64,000 nt of DNA from Chrysophaeum taylorii (taxonomy: Eukaryota; Sar; Pelagophyceae; Pelagomonadales; Pelagomonadaceae). Where the stretch lies: positions 149,398 through 213,397 of the forward strand of contig JAQMWT010000350.1 of assembly GCA_029834535.1 (NCBI GenBank). The letters are read 5' to 3'. Position numbers and translations under genes: made by a program. Under the pieces are notes generated by a model. It had not been told where the DNA came from and searched no databases. It saw only the letters and a list, made by a program, of their open reading frames with translations. Below are positions 52,951 through 60,558 of the stretch, piece by piece; position 1 is the stretch's first letter; the number at the start of each line of letters is the position of its first letter.

Positions 52951-54434
52951 TGCACACATATACAAGCGGGTAGGTTTGAGCGAGCAGCATAAAACCGAAA
53001 ATTTCAGTTCGCGCTAAACGCCACCCCCCCCGGACGTGGCCGGTGACAGGGTCGTCGGAGGGGTGGTGTCTTGGGCGGTCCGCGAAGATTCGAACATGGG
53101 GCTCGGCGGACCCCCGATATCGTATTTTCTTTTTTTCCGTCCGGGGCGGCGATTTTGCGACTTACTAACTTCGCCGCCGAAGACTTCGGGGGAGTTAGTT
53201 TTTTTTCGCGGACACAACTCCTTTCGAAGCGGATTCGCGTGCGCGGGACAGCCACCAACGTGCCCTCCCGATCACCCTCGAGAAAGTGGCATCACAACAT
53301 GTGGCAGCTATGTATTATTAAAGTCGTGATGTGCTCCTGTTTCCGCCTCGTCGAGGCGAGAAAGCTCACTTTGGGGTTTGATAGAGCGATGCTTGTGGTG
53401 TTGTTTCCCGGCGGCGGAGTTTTTTTATAAATCTGCTTGGCGGCCTCGAGGGCGATGTTGTCCATCTCGGCGCCACCTTGGTTTGAGCTCACGCGCGAGG
53501 CGATGCTTGTTGACGAACAGGACGGCAACGGTGTCGTAGACGATCTCGGTCCTTCCTCGCTCCCTCTCTCGCTCGTGGTAGTCAAAGCACGCGAAGTACT
53601 CTCCCCGCGTGCTTGTGCGACTTCGAGTACTGCCCCACGCCCTGCCCCTAGTGGGTCAAAAGAGTCCTCTCGCACCGCCCTTTTGAGCCCAGGGCACGCT
53701 TCTGGTGTACCCCGTCTCTTCATCTCCGACTTCAGCTATGATGACGAAAGCCACCAGGCTGCGTGGATGCATCGACACTATCCGGGACACTATCCGGACG
53801 CGCTCGGACTGCGCGTCAGGCGTCAGACACGCCGCAACGCTTCTCCATTTCCATCATCATGAAACGAGGCACAATCGGTCCGTTGCGTGTTCTTTTTGAG
53901 TATGCGGTGCACCATATTTGATGTGCACCCGAAATGGGCGAAAAAGCTTCCCGCAGCCGAATATCGTCCATATCGCGCGTGTTCTGACGAAGCAAGCCCC
54001 CCCCAAGTCGACTAAGGGCTATCGATCGGCTCCGAGAGACCCGCGAAACTCGATGGTCTTGCCCCTGAAACCCCGTGACGTCACCGCTGCACAAAACTCG
54101 CTAATCGGGACATTTTCCTAGTCCCCAGGTGCCGATCGACGCCTTTTGAGGCGTACTCGAGAGTGGCCAAGCGACGTTGGTGGGGCGGTCGATCTGCAGT
54201 TGCGGGTTGAAACCGGGTTGGTTACGCGCTTGAAGGGAGGAAGGAGGGTACGATGAACGAGCCAAGAACCCCCACCCCCCTAGTAGTGAGTGTACTCTCT
54301 AACGGACAAGTTTCGGGCGTTTTGTTTGTTTTGTTAGTTTTGTTTGTTTGTTTGTTTGTTTTCCGGAACACGAACGAACGATGTTGTTGTCGATGTTCAC
54401 GTCGTGCGAGGACTTTTTTCTTCGTAATTAATTT
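52951..54434. other. intergenic region with unresolved minus-strand exons
   Basis: On the minus strand about 53635-53475 reads EYFACFDYHERERERGR and EIVYDTVAVLFVNKHRLA, and 53473-53425 in the next frame reads GAEMDNIALEAAKQIYKK, both with strong GC3 bias. The switch between them occurs at GTGAGC...CCAAG, only 16 nt apart. Either a very small intron, a frameshift or a wrong model. The family is not recognised and the ends are unknown. Small inverted repeats lie at 53165-53207, and GTTT tracts near 54330-54360. Confidence 0.35.
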
Positions 54435-56217
54435 ATGTTGCTGCCAGATGTGGTGCTCCCCGTGTTCAAGCTTGAGGAGTGCCGGAACCCCCCGAAGCAG
54501 ACGGGGCTCCCGGATTTTGACTTATGCGAAGCGCACGAGCGAGGTCATCATCGTCGGTCCGAAGAGCGCGAACCCCAACGGTCCGAAGAGCCGCCCGCTC
54601 GGCGGCGGCGGAAGATCTTGCCGCTCATGCGGTACCGCGCCCCGCCGCCCAGCAAGCCTCGCGTCAAACCGGTGCTGCGCCAGCCTCGGCCGCGCTCGCC
54701 GCGACGGAAGAAGGAGGCGTTTGATTACGCGTCGATGCACGGCGGTACGACCGGCTTTCGCGCGCTTGGCGACGGCTTCGGCGCGGCGAACGACGTCGCG
54801 AGCTGGATGCGCAAGTTCGCGCACTCGGCGCGCGACGAGCCGCCGCCGCCGCTGCCGAAGAAAAGCGTCGAGACGACGACGACGACGACGGCGGCCGTTC
54901 TCAGGAAGCCGCGACCTGCCGCGGTAGCGAAAAGGCGACCCCCTGTTCCCGCCCCCGCGCTGCCCCCCGATCATTCGTTGCGACTCGCGAGGGGACGCCG
55001 CGCCGAGGCCGCACGAAGGTCAAGAGACAGACAGCTCGCGGCGCGCGACGCGTTCCTCGACGCTCAGGTGGCCAAGGTGCAGCCGGAGTCTTTGATGATC
55101 GAAAAGCGCCAGCGCTACCTCGGCGCCCAGCCCAAGCCCACCCGAAGGGCACGCCGGCAGCTCAAAGATTCTTCGAAGACCGAGTCCGAACCGCATCTCC
55201 GTCGCCACCGCGAGCTCCTCGAGCGATACAAGGGAGCTCTGCTGCCGGGGGACGTCCGCGCTTGGCGCGAGGGCGACGCTGTGCTCGTCAAGTGGGACGA
55301 CGGTGCGCGCTACCCGGGTCTCGTCGCGCGCGTCGACGACCGTTCCGCCGACGTTCGTTTCGTCGACGGCGATTCCCGGGACGACGTGCCGTTGAGCGAC
55401 CTCGAGGCCCCGAGCTGGCGCGTCGGCGACGCGTGCCGCTGTTTGTGGGAAGAGGATGGCGAATGGTACTCGGGAATCGTCAACGCAGTCGCCGGGACAA
55501 CGGTCGACGTTCTCTTTGACGACGGCGACAGGAGGCACGGGGCTCCCCTCGCTCATCTCGCTAAGCCGGCGGATGACGACGAGTCGACCGACGTCGACGG
55601 TTTCGTCGCGTCTCGCAACGTGGTGGTCGATGCAGCAGCACCCTCCGAAGTCCCCCCAGCGGTCACTCCGTCCTTGTGTGATGCCGCCGTCATACCACAG
55701 CATGCCGTTCGCGATAAAACGGAAATTGTTGGCGAGGACGATGATCGTGACGAAGAGTACGAAGTCGACGACGAAAGCGGCGGCGGCGGCGGCGGCGATA
55801 GAAGAAAACACCAACCTGCTGCAGCGAGGTCATCGTCAAATCAAAACCACGTCGACGACGAGGCGTCGGCCAGGAGTCAGATAGTAGACCACCAGTACTA
55901 CCAAGTCGCCGCGACCCCTAGTGATAGTCGCGGCGCAAATCGAGGCCCTACGAGTTGGAACAGTAGTGCCGACGAAGATATCGGCAAGCCCCTGCCTTTC
56001 GTATCAAACCAGCGCGCTTCCGACTACGGGGTACCGGCGATTACCAGCGGCATGGTAGATCACCAAACCCCTGTCGCCACAACCCGGAGTGATGGCGATG
56101 GATTTTCTCGTAACCATCCATGGGGCAGAGACGGCGAAACTTCGACGCCACCACCTTCCGACGTGCCACCTGCTCGCGATGTCGGCAAAAACGGCGGAGA
56201 CTACGACGATGATGATT

Positions 56218-56249
<32 letters not shown>

Positions 56250-56285
56250 TATCACGATGACGATTTCGAAGAAGACGCCTCGTGA
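54435..56285 (+). CDS. protein with tandem Tudor-like domains
   Basis: 616 aa, single exon. The N-terminal half is basic and Pro/Arg-rich without clear folds. Residues about 275-315 and 325-370 are two adjacent Tudor/SMN-type barrels with the typical G-D-A-V/C-x-x-W-x-DG/ED-G-x-W/Y-Y pattern: EGDAVLVKWDDGARYPGLV, then VRFVDGDSRDDVPLSDLE; and VGDACRCLWEEDGEWYSGIV followed by VDVLFDDGDRRHGAPLAHL. Such pairs read methylated Lys/Arg on histones or proteins. The C-terminus is acidic with an Asp run from a GAC/GAT microsatellite (56203-56250). A chromatin or RNP role is inferred. Confidence 0.78.
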
Positions 56286-57017: not shown

Positions 57018-57092
57018 CCATGCGTACAGTTCGCGTCGAACTGCGGCGCGCGCGAAAGGGAGGAGAGCGCCCTGCAGTTGTCATCCGCATGG
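57018..57092 (-). promoter_or_regulatory. candidate SECIS element
   Basis: In the 3' flank of the redoxin gene, 48 nt after its stop. On the minus strand: helix I CCATGCG (57092-57086) pairs with CGCATGG (57024-57018). An ATGA (57084-57081) faces a CGAC containing GA (57038-57035), as in the SECIS non-Watson-Crick quartet. Helix II AACTGC (57079-57074) pairs with GCAGTT (57044-57039), extended by GGCGC/GCGCC. The apical loop is pyrimidine-rich and lacks the usual AA at the expected distance (some SECIS use CC), so this is only a candidate. Confidence 0.4.
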
Positions 57093-57139: not shown

Positions 57140-57847
57140 TCAGAACTTTTTGATCGGTGCGAGCTTGATGGGGCGGCGCTCTTTGACGGAGGGTACGAGG
57201 TCCGAGATGACCGGGCGGAACGTGACGAGTGGGAATTGCTCGCCTTCGAACGGGACCATATCCATGGCCTGGCCATTGCTGTAGCCCATCTGCCGACCAC
57301 GTCTCATGAATAAACAACGCGAGAGGCTGCTGCTTACCGTCTTCCAGGACCACGTGCACTCCTTGACAGTGGCGCCGTTGGCGTCGAGGACGACGATCGC
57401 CGGTTGGACCATCTCGTAGTTTCCCGAAACTTCCCACTCGTGGGCCTTGAGGGTGTAGATATCCCCTGCATCCTTTACGAGGAAAGAGTGGTCGGGATCG
57501 GACTTGACCTCGAATTTGAGGTCGGCGACGCCGCGGTCGGCGAGGCGTTGCCGAACTGCCTCGTCGCCGCCCGGCTCCGCCGTGATGGCCGTGAGGGTCA
57601 TGCCCTCGGCAAGCACAGCGTCGTACACTCTGTTGAGGTCCGACAGCTGTGCGCGACACGGGGGTCACCACCTGCGGATCTGGTCAACACTCAAGCACGT
57701 TTTCGCTACGCACGACCCGCGGAAGTGGTAGTGGATACTAAAGCCGGTGCTTGACACCGACGACCCCATTGTCGTTGTAAAGCGGGCTGCAAAGCGGGCT
57801 GCAAAAGTGGTGGTCCGAACGAGAAAAAGCACGGACAACAGAATCAT
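57140..57847 (-). CDS. redoxin-fold selenoprotein with in-frame TGA (Sec), three exons
   Basis: Exons 57714-57847, 57338-57671 and 57140-57289. Introns are 42 nt (GTGCGT...CGCAG, phase 2) and 48 nt (GTAAGC...GGCAG, phase 0). Splicing exon 1 to 2 gives FRGSW-TGA-PPCRAQLSDLNRVYDAV, where peroxiredoxin/AhpC-like relatives have FRGSWCPPCRAQL. TGA at complement(57665..57667) therefore falls on the redox Cys and is read as Sec47, with Cys50 as partner (U-x2-C). The rest is a thioredoxin-like domain: MTLTAITAEPGGDEAV, SFLVKDAGDIYTL, VQPAIVVLDANGATV, and TWSWKTMGYSN across the second junction. 205 aa. The N-terminus is hydrophobic. Likely a thiol/peroxide oxidoreductase. A 3' hairpin may be its SECIS. 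Confidence 0.82.
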
Positions 57848-57939: not shown

Positions 57940-58992
57940 CAAGTGCAGGCCAGTAAGTTCACTTACTCCAAATCTCTAACCCCAGTAAGTTCACCTGGTC
58001 CCAGTAAGTTTCATATAAGTTCACCTGGGCAGTAAGTTCACCTAGCTCACACCAACTCCTTTGAGCTCGTCGCTCTCGCCTCCGCCAATCTAAGCTGCTT
58101 TGATCCGCACGCGCCGCCAACCTTTGAGTTTACTCTAAAAACTTTACTCTAAAAACCCCAGTATGTTCACCTGGTCCCAGTTTCACCTGGTCACTCAGTT
58201 CACGTAGTCCCAATCTCAAACCCCAGTAAGTTCACGTGGTCCCAATAAGTTCACCTATAGTGCGCGTGTAGACGCCGGGAGGGGGCTTATCGGTATTGCG
58301 CAGCACGTGTGGGGTAGGGTGGAGTCGTCGACCCAGATGAGTATATCCTCGGGGATCCCGATCGACAGAGAGCCACGTAGAGCTGGACGTGGCAGAAGAC
58401 GGGCTTGGGAAAGAGGACGCCGACCTCGCGGGGCGTCTGGCCCTGGCTCTTGTTGATCGTTTGGCGTAGGCGGGCCTTAAGGGATACATGTTGGAGGAGC
58501 CTCGGTGACAACGACACGATCGATCATGTATCTGGTACCGTTGCAGTGGCCGTGCGACGGGTCGAGGTTTCGAAGACCTCAAGCTCGCGCTCAAAGTCAG
58601 CATCCCGTTGGTTGTCAGGGAGTTGAAAACCCTACTGTAAAGAGCGAGGCGTCGTCTTCCGACCCAGCCTAGTCAGCCGAAAAGAACTCCGACGCCTCGT
58701 CTCCGAGAAAAAAAGGCCGCGGTCATGCGCGCGTTGTCAGCATCGACAGCATCGTTTCGACGGGGCGTGAGAATGGCGCGCTGAAAGAGCCGCCGCGGGT
58801 CGTGGAAATAGTCTGCGAGGTCGCCGTAGACGGCTTGGAGGATCACTGTCTGGCTCTCGCGCCGACCTGATCCTTACTCTCGGGCCTACCTGATCCTTAC
58901 CCTAAATCGAGGGACAGACAGACAGACTCCCCACACACACCCCCCCCCTTAGCAGTCGACATTTAAAGACAGACAGACAGACAGACAGACAA
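57940..58992 (-). mobile_element. Helitron-like element copy D, interrupted
   Basis: The 3' end CCTGCACTTG at 57940 is followed by T on the minus strand. The same array and helicase remnant as the other copies are present. The 5' end is missing: the sequence follows the family up to the GACA tract at 58992 and then changes to the LTR of the copia element instead of continuing to the 5' terminus. Confidence 0.78.
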
Positions 58993-59083
58993 TGTTACGA
59001 ATGGTATGAGGCGTTAGACTAGCGATAGGAGAAAGACGTAAGGATACTGGATACGTGGTGCAGGGGTAAGTGTCATAGCTTCT
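58993..59083 (-). repeat. LTR (element's 3' LTR), at least this part
   Basis: Starts TGTTACGAATGG on the plus strand and matches 63911-64000 with one visible difference (GATAGGAG versus GATAAGAG). The inner boundary cannot be set because the other copy is cut by the window edge. Confidence 0.85.
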
Positions 59084-59182
59084 TCACACAGGTGCTGGAA
59101 AAGAAGGAAAAGGAAAAAGGGGTAAGTGAGGTCTTCACACAGGTGCTGGAAAAGAAGGAAAAGGAAAAAGGGGTAAGTGAGG
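59084..59182. repeat. ~50-bp tandem duplication
   Basis: Two near-perfect copies of a unit containing CACACAGGTGCTGGAAAAGA and a purine tract, directly beside the left LTR. It lengthens the out-of-frame tail of the RT/RNase H frame. Confidence 0.85.
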
Positions 59183-59189
59183 TCTTCAG

Positions 59190-60314
59190 CGAGCGGGAGC
59201 AGTAGGCTATCATAGAACCAGCAAGGAGAAAACAAAAACCAGTTGTAGAGTGGCGGTCATCAGGGTCGTCGGCCCAGCTGGAGTCGGAATAACCACAGAG
59301 ATGAAGGGTAGAATCGCGACCAAGAATAAGGGCAAGATCCTGAGTACCGTTGAGGTAACGCAGAGTGTGGGATAAAGCGTGCCAGTGGGGTTTACCAGGA
59401 TTGTGGGAAAAACGCGCACACTGATTGACGGACCAAGTGATATCAGGGCGAGTCATGATGGAGATGAAGAGGACACAGCCAACAATACGGCGAAAAGGGA
59501 TGCGTGCCATGAAAATGTGATCTGGAGAACCAGGAGCCGGACAATCAGCCGCAGAAAGATGAAGACCTTTGGGAGCGGGAGTGAGTTCAGGTTTACTGTT
59601 GATGAAGCGATGTTCGGTAAGGATTTCACGGATAGCATGGGATTGGTCAAGAGTGAGGGTTCTCCGAGGGCGATCACGCGTAATGCGAAGACCAACGTAA
59701 GAGGTGAGATCGAGTTCATTGACGTCAGTGAAAGCGCGGAAACGGAGGAAAAAGGCTTGGTAATGGCCAATGCAGTGAGGAGGGTGCGCTACAAGAAGAT
59801 CATCGACGACCAAAACAAGACGGAGGACCACGGTAGAATTGAGCACGAGCTTGTAATGGCAAGTGTCACCAGATCCGCGGACGAAGCCACAATCATTGAG
59901 AAGGAAGCGTTCCAAATAAAGCCACCAATTGCGACAAGCTTGTTTGCAACCATACCAAGAGCGACGGAGCTTGTAAACGATTTTGGAACCATCGGTGGGT
60001 TGGCGAGGAGCATAGCCTTCGGGTGGCCAGACATAGATGTCTTCGTCAATGGGAGCTTGAATAAAAGCGGAGCTAACATCCAACTTGTGCAAATCCCAGT
60101 CACGAACAGCGACAAAGGTCAGAAAGAAACGGATCGTGACGATGTTGGCAACTGGTGAGTAGGTGTCATGATAATCAATGCCGTGAACCTGGGTGTAACC
60201 GCGGACGACAAGGCGAGCCTTGTACGATTTGAAGCGGCCAGAGTCATACTTCTTGCGGAGGATCCACTTGAGGGTACAAATGTTGCCAGAAAAAGTCTGA
60301 GGGAGGCGAATCAC
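59190..60314 (-). pseudogene. copia reverse transcriptase and truncated RNase H
   Basis: Reads ARLVVRGYTQVHGIDYHDTYSP, WDLHKLDVSSAFIQAPIDED, SWYGCKQACRNWW and, at the catalytic site, LVLVVDDLLVAH (VVDD where copia elements usually have YVDD). Then MTRPDITWSVNQ and the RNase H start GYSDSSWADDPDDRHST. It breaks off after the first part of RNase H (AYCSRS): the usual SSxEAEY part, still present in the fragment at 5460-6640, is absent and replaced by the tandem duplication. Non-functional as it stands. Confidence 0.88.
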
Positions 60315-60558
60315 ATCCCAACAACCAAGTTGACCAAGAGAGCTGTATTCTTAAGCGATGGCTTGCAACCAACCAGGACGCTCAGGATTGGTCGGAGCTA
60401 AAGCTTCACGTAAATGGGTGGAAGTGATAGTGGTTTCGTCAAGGTCTGAATACTGGGACATTTCTTCGGAAGCAGAGTAATAAACGTGTGCATGAGGATC
60501 AACAAGGGTGCTAGCTAAACAAAGGGGAAGGAAGACATAATGAACTAACAAACGAAAG

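Follow-up and report, generated by a model that had tools for sequence, protein, structure and literature searches.

Does the gene on the minus strand at positions 57140-57847 of the window, by which we mean the whole stretch of 64,000 nucleotides (nt) analysed here (contig C350, positions 149398-213397, of the pelagophycean alga Chrysophaeum taylorii), encode selenocysteine (Sec, U) at a TGA codon in the middle of its putative redox-active site? A preliminary description of this DNA had proposed as much, and we find this reading of the codon highly probable. Support for it comes from a diverged paralogue that carries a TGA at the same place, the placement of a predicted UxxC motif within an AhpC/TSA domain, the presence of Sec machinery and of 12 further genes with an in-frame TGA in the genome, and a SECIS-like (selenocysteine insertion sequence) element downstream of both the gene and its paralogue.

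Gene structure, paralogue and domain

The gene comprises the following features, all on the minus strand:

57714..57847, minus strand: exon 1, with the first ATG at 57847 and a second in-frame ATG at 57769
57672..57713, minus strand: predicted intron 1, 42 nt, GTGCGT...CGCAG, whose removal restores FRGSW as in the paralogue and relatives
57338..57671, minus strand: exon 2, carrying the active site W-U-P-P-C
57665..57667, minus strand: in-frame TGA, predicted Sec codon, located in the spliced sequence and found also in the paralogue
57656..57658, minus strand: TGT, codon for the partner Cys in UxxC, from sequence and translation
57290..57337, minus strand: intron 2, 48 nt, GTAAGC...GGCAG, in frame and omitted from the deposited protein P0001
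57140..57289, minus strand: exon 3, with the terminal stop TGA at 57142-57140
57035..57084, minus strand: candidate SECIS, ATGAC-hairpin-CGAC, 55 nt after the stop and the sole candidate in a scan of the gene's 3' region

Joined, the three exons make up 618 bases, in which the single internal TGA is codon 47 counted from the first ATG. Splicing out 57713-57672 yields FRGSW-TGA-PPCRAQLSDL, with the TGA at 57667-57665 and no further internal stop in frame, which reproduces both the junction and the intact frame on either side of the TGA that had been described before; the earlier account of the introns was correct for the 42-nt one (GTGCGT donor) and overlooked the second, in-frame intron of 48 nt at 57337-57290. 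The G+C content at third codon positions is 0.81 downstream of the TGA and, upstream of it, 0.85 counted from the second ATG and 0.67 from the first. Translation more likely starts at the second ATG, which precedes the Sec codon by 20 residues, because the relative P0040 has the same number ahead of the site; the predicted product has about 180-205 residues. The deposited protein (P0001, CTAYLR_005146), with 137 residues, starts at a Met after the TGA. Across intron 2 it reads SWKTMGYSN, where relatives read WSWKTMG, and, as this 48-nt intron is left out of it, introns this short are evidently accepted in the annotation of the genome.

Within the 70.8 Mb of genome searched, we found a paralogue (L002, contig C558) that is 51% identical to the window gene in the alignment and whose DNA at the aligned site reads TGG TGA CCG CCG TGC CGG. 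When joined by eye, it gives FRGTW-TGA-PPCR, an intron starting with GTGAGG, and then SQLTALN; the introns of the two genes lie at different places. Mutation or error would hardly account for the same in-frame TGA in two diverged copies with differing introns. The deposited protein of the paralogue (P0007) joins FRGT to CSQL, dropping the TGA together with the active site. A third copy (L003, contig C555) is degenerate, with broken frames, and no WUPPC stretch was seen in it.

When Cys is written at the TGA, the window protein after splicing matches the Pfam family AhpC-TSA (PF00578) with 28.8 bits and the paralogue with 40.2, both above the cut-off of 26 bits, in line with the membership in the AhpC/thioredoxin-like superfamily suggested in the preliminary description. 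The open frame after the TGA alone reaches 17.7 bits, so the stretch around the TGA is part of the domain. Two of six relatives score above the same cut-off and four below it (19.9-25.1 bits), and the predicted structure model of one relative has a peroxiredoxin fold. Among solved structures, searched by sequence, there was no credible match (best E-value 0.046). Typical peroxiredoxins carry a PxxxTxxC peroxidatic motif; we rejected assignment to this group, as the putative active site of the window protein is FRGSWUPPC and contains no PxxxTxxC.

We read the product as a putative UxxC selenol/thiol oxidoreductase, a small redoxin of the AhpC/TSA (thioredoxin-fold) superfamily in which Sec would sit in W-U-P-P-C just before the first helix. 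In such a protein, the UGA would be decoded by tRNA-Sec under the guidance of the 3' element, the selenolate would attack a peroxide or disulfide, the neighbouring Cys would close a selenenylsulfide bond, and a donor of the thioredoxin or glutathione type would reduce it. This catalytic scheme, from selenolate attack to donor reduction, is reasonably likely.

Selenocysteine machinery and 3' elements

The genome contains a tRNA-Sec (60 bits against a cut-off of 47, with TCA in the anticodon loop by eye), as well as SepSecS and SelD. The SelD match (L031) lies inside an open frame of 930 residues, with no stop within the match, and may be a fusion and a non-Sec form. Twelve further genes carry an in-frame TGA (L009, L010, L011, L013, L014, L018, L019, L020, L021, L022, L023 and L028), encompassing three Rdx, two glutathione peroxidases, three SelM/Sep15, one MsrA and three SelU-type genes, and from their motifs we take these codons to sit at known Sec sites. 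The TGA of L023 lies in an upstream exon of another frame, hence across an intron, and two of the three SelU-type genes share the flanking motif RRPG-TGA-PxC. At an MsrA locus (L029) the match is interrupted by both a TGA and a TAG; this locus was judged to be intron-bearing and was excluded.

The core of a SECIS starts with ATGAC. In addition to the element of the window gene, an ATGAC-hairpin-CGAT arrangement follows the stop of the paralogue after 134 nt, and in all 12 other TGA genes the first ATGAC occurs 24-58 nt after the stop. Among controls, one of 10 non-Sec genes (L027) has an ATGAC within 160 nt; from the average over the window, 0.14 would be expected per 160 nt. The controls were 13 at first; L021-L023 were removed after an upstream SelU-type TGA had been found in them, and, as it was their ATGAC within the control set that exposed them, they make the test a partly blind one. 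Both the window gene and the paralogue have a strict core (ATGAC, four pairs, NGA), of which the two strands of the window contain three, counting that of the gene. The hairpin of the paralogue is predicted to form, with probabilities of 0.997 and 0.998, in two settings, for the pairs beside the quartet. We consider the predicted 3' element of the window gene likely to be a SECIS.

Several observations weigh against the Sec reading or its SECIS component. The strict core fits just four of the 12 other TGA genes. The main weakness is the fold predicted for the window gene, in which a competing hairpin, GCAGTTCG/CGAACTGT, prevails over the candidate SECIS (the forced SECIS fold has -23.6 kcal/mol, against -29.1), so that the pairs next to the quartet attain probabilities of only 0.003 and 0.054 in the two settings. 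The loop of this candidate also has no AA, which a SECIS loop usually contains. The hairpin of L011 is weak (-2.0 kcal/mol). The Rfam model SECIS_1 matches nowhere in the genome, the surroundings of the gene and of the paralogue included, which is weak evidence, since that model is built mostly on animal elements. At the tRNA-Sec locus, ARAGORN (bacterial code) made no tRNA call. The ensemble computation covered eight of the 12 other TGA genes, leaving out L011, L014, L021 and L028 with their weak, short or offset hairpins, and two of these eight, L018 and L020, likewise have low values with short flanks (0.016 and 0.116). L013 has no hairpin under the rule applied to the other TGA genes. Of the 446 ATGA sites on the two strands of the window, nine, including that of the gene, reach the energy rule passed by the gene's hairpin, so that a single hairpin would not convince.

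By eye, the loop after ATGAC is C-rich and has no AA in L009, L014, L019, L020 and at 57084-57035 of the window, and those of L010 and L028 do contain AA; the C-rich loops are possibly a CC-type SECIS variant. The 3' end of the SelW-type gene L009 seems duplicated, with ATGAC and the same upstream stretch 24 and 155 nt after the stop.

Relatives and rival explanations

Three protein searches, restricted to candidates sharing short words, gave 23 matches, the best 120 of 129, and 18 (12 of them new), the larger search scoring the 7995 best candidates; at least 132 relatives were collected, two C. taylorii models included. The first 120 relatives were aligned, and the counts at the site concern these, among the matches listed. 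Six of them span the site, five with Trp and one, P0075 (FRGVWCPVCR), with Cys. Those with Trp come from metagenomes or environmental samples and read WWPPCR (three), FWPPCR and WWPPDR (one each); their Trp is probably a TGA that the gene caller translated by code 4. Of the remainder, 113 have a gap at the Sec column and P0114 shows F in a misaligned stretch; 105 of the 120 begin 5-89 query positions downstream of that column, and the 12 later relatives outside the alignment, read by eye, start downstream of it as well. Cys or Sec had been expected at this position in homologues, an expectation with which the TGA of the paralogue and the one Cys agree; the five Trp and the 113 gaps differ from it in detail. 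We infer that the pattern fits a family mostly in Sec form. Named sources of relatives in the set are Cylindrotheca closterium (P0025), Lotharella globosa (P0070), Prymnesium polylepis (P0082) and Pelagophyceae sp. CCMP2097 (P0090), in this order a diatom, a chlorarachniophyte, a haptophyte and a pelagophyte. Pattern matches on viral contigs (five) and on prokaryote genome contigs (six) included no confirmed relative.

One alternative is that a real intron removes the TGA, and 33 GT-AG introns of 30-250 nt would avoid the codon and keep the frame open, for instance one from GTAGCG at 57709 to ACAG at 57647 (63 nt), which gives FRGSC-LSDLN. The deposited model of the paralogue (FRGT-C-SQL) removes its TGA in a similar way, and gene calls in this genome drew on RNA-seq evidence and protein homology, according to the available part of the genome paper (PMC10366177). 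However, all 33 introns end at 57647 or lower and would thus delete the UxxC codons, the Cys codon at 57658-57656 among them, whereas this stretch is kept in the five metagenome proteins and in the one with WCPVC. Alternative splicing also sits poorly with the ATGAC element 3' of both gene and paralogue, and with the deposited models P0025 and P0090, which both lose the site, each in its own way, as expected of stop avoidance. We therefore regard it as very unlikely.

Still more improbable are two other explanations. One takes the TGA for a nonsense mutation in a pseudogene or for an assembly error, for which the visibly broken third copy on contig C555 provides a precedent; the same TGA in a paralogue of 51% identity speaks strongly against it, as do the otherwise open exons, the third-position G+C content on both sides and a match of 76% identity among proteins derived from MMETSP transcripts. 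The other has UGA read as tryptophan in C. taylorii, as the W deposited at the site in the five environmental relatives might suggest, but the gene's own terminal stop is a TGA, genes of the GPX, SelW, SelM and SelU types in the genome carry TGA where Sec is expected from the motifs we recall, and a tRNA-Sec is present. Trp is, moreover, incapable of the chemistry of an attacking residue. Sec insertion at 57665..57667 is thus the reading that we retain.

Known systems and genomic surroundings

The active site of ResA/TlpA proteins is of the W-C-P-P-C type, and the window gene would have Sec for its first Cys. ResA/TlpA models are among the best, though weak, NCBIfam matches of the relatives, and the assignment was rejected with scores far below the cut-offs (ResA at most 20.6 of 170 bits, TlpA 12.3-13.4 of 230). 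SELENOU, like the window gene, is redoxin-like with UxxC, but differs in its flanking motif; its Pfam family AhpC-TSA_2 (PF13911) has no match at an E-value of 0.1 in the window protein or the paralogue and a weak one (13.2 of 27 bits) in one of six relatives, and it was rejected as well. In bacteria, the SECIS lies within the coding region. The candidate SECIS of the window gene, located 3' of the coding region, sets it apart from the prokaryotic Prx-like thiol:disulfide oxidoreductase (pfam00578, UxxC/UxxU) described in the available part of PMC9312934, which lists an AhpC-TSA selenoprotein with UxxC among those of prokaryotes; domain family and UxxC arrangement are the same.

Two algal AhpC families, AhpC_a (TGGUT) and AhpC_b (UxxC, Thalassiosira oceanica), are distinguished in the accessible portion of Jiang et al. 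(2020; PMC7539508), which also names an algal TlpA selenoprotein family. Compared by description only, AhpC_b resembles the window gene in its AhpC_TSA domain, UxxC motif, Sec form and marine microalgal host; whereas the homologues of the T. oceanica protein are given there as exclusively prokaryotic and in Cys form, the window gene has eukaryotic algal relatives, and Cys in one of the six spanning the site among the matches listed. The family of the window gene may equal AhpC_b, or it could be the TlpA family of that paper under another name. The literature searched contained no selenium paper for WUPPC and none naming such a protein in C. taylorii, and Gobler et al. (2013), on Aureococcus, may list a pelagophyte relative; words starting in seleno- or selenium do not occur in the main text of the genome paper (PMC10366177), in the part available.

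In the surroundings of the gene, units resembling GTAAGTTCACC are repeated at 57940-58260 (by eye), between it and an adjoining Copia-type reverse transcriptase open frame (59073-60350, minus strand; Pfam RVT_2, E-value 7e-37), and on its other side an open frame of 617 residues (54432-56285, plus strand) has a Tudor/SMN-like match of 28.7 bits and an acidic tail.

Judging by its sequence, the window gene appears to belong to the already-known UxxC kind of AhpC/TSA selenoprotein, with the Sec site absent from the deposited model. More tentatively, it may represent a redoxin family of marine microalgae that is as yet undescribed and occurs almost exclusively in Sec form; annotations would have missed it by placing the start downstream of the UGA or by splicing the codon out, which would leave nearly every public entry without its active site. 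What the relatives suggest is a redox family that depends largely on Sec and is beheaded by automatic annotation, 113 of the 120 aligned, among the matches listed, being without the site. For the pelagophyte Aureococcus, 82 selenoprotein genes are reported in the part of PMC7539508 available, and the window gene, its paralogue and the 12 others suggest wide use of selenium in C. taylorii as well. Further genes of this sort could be sought in its genome simply by the ATGAC element that they share, through which three came to light here by accident.
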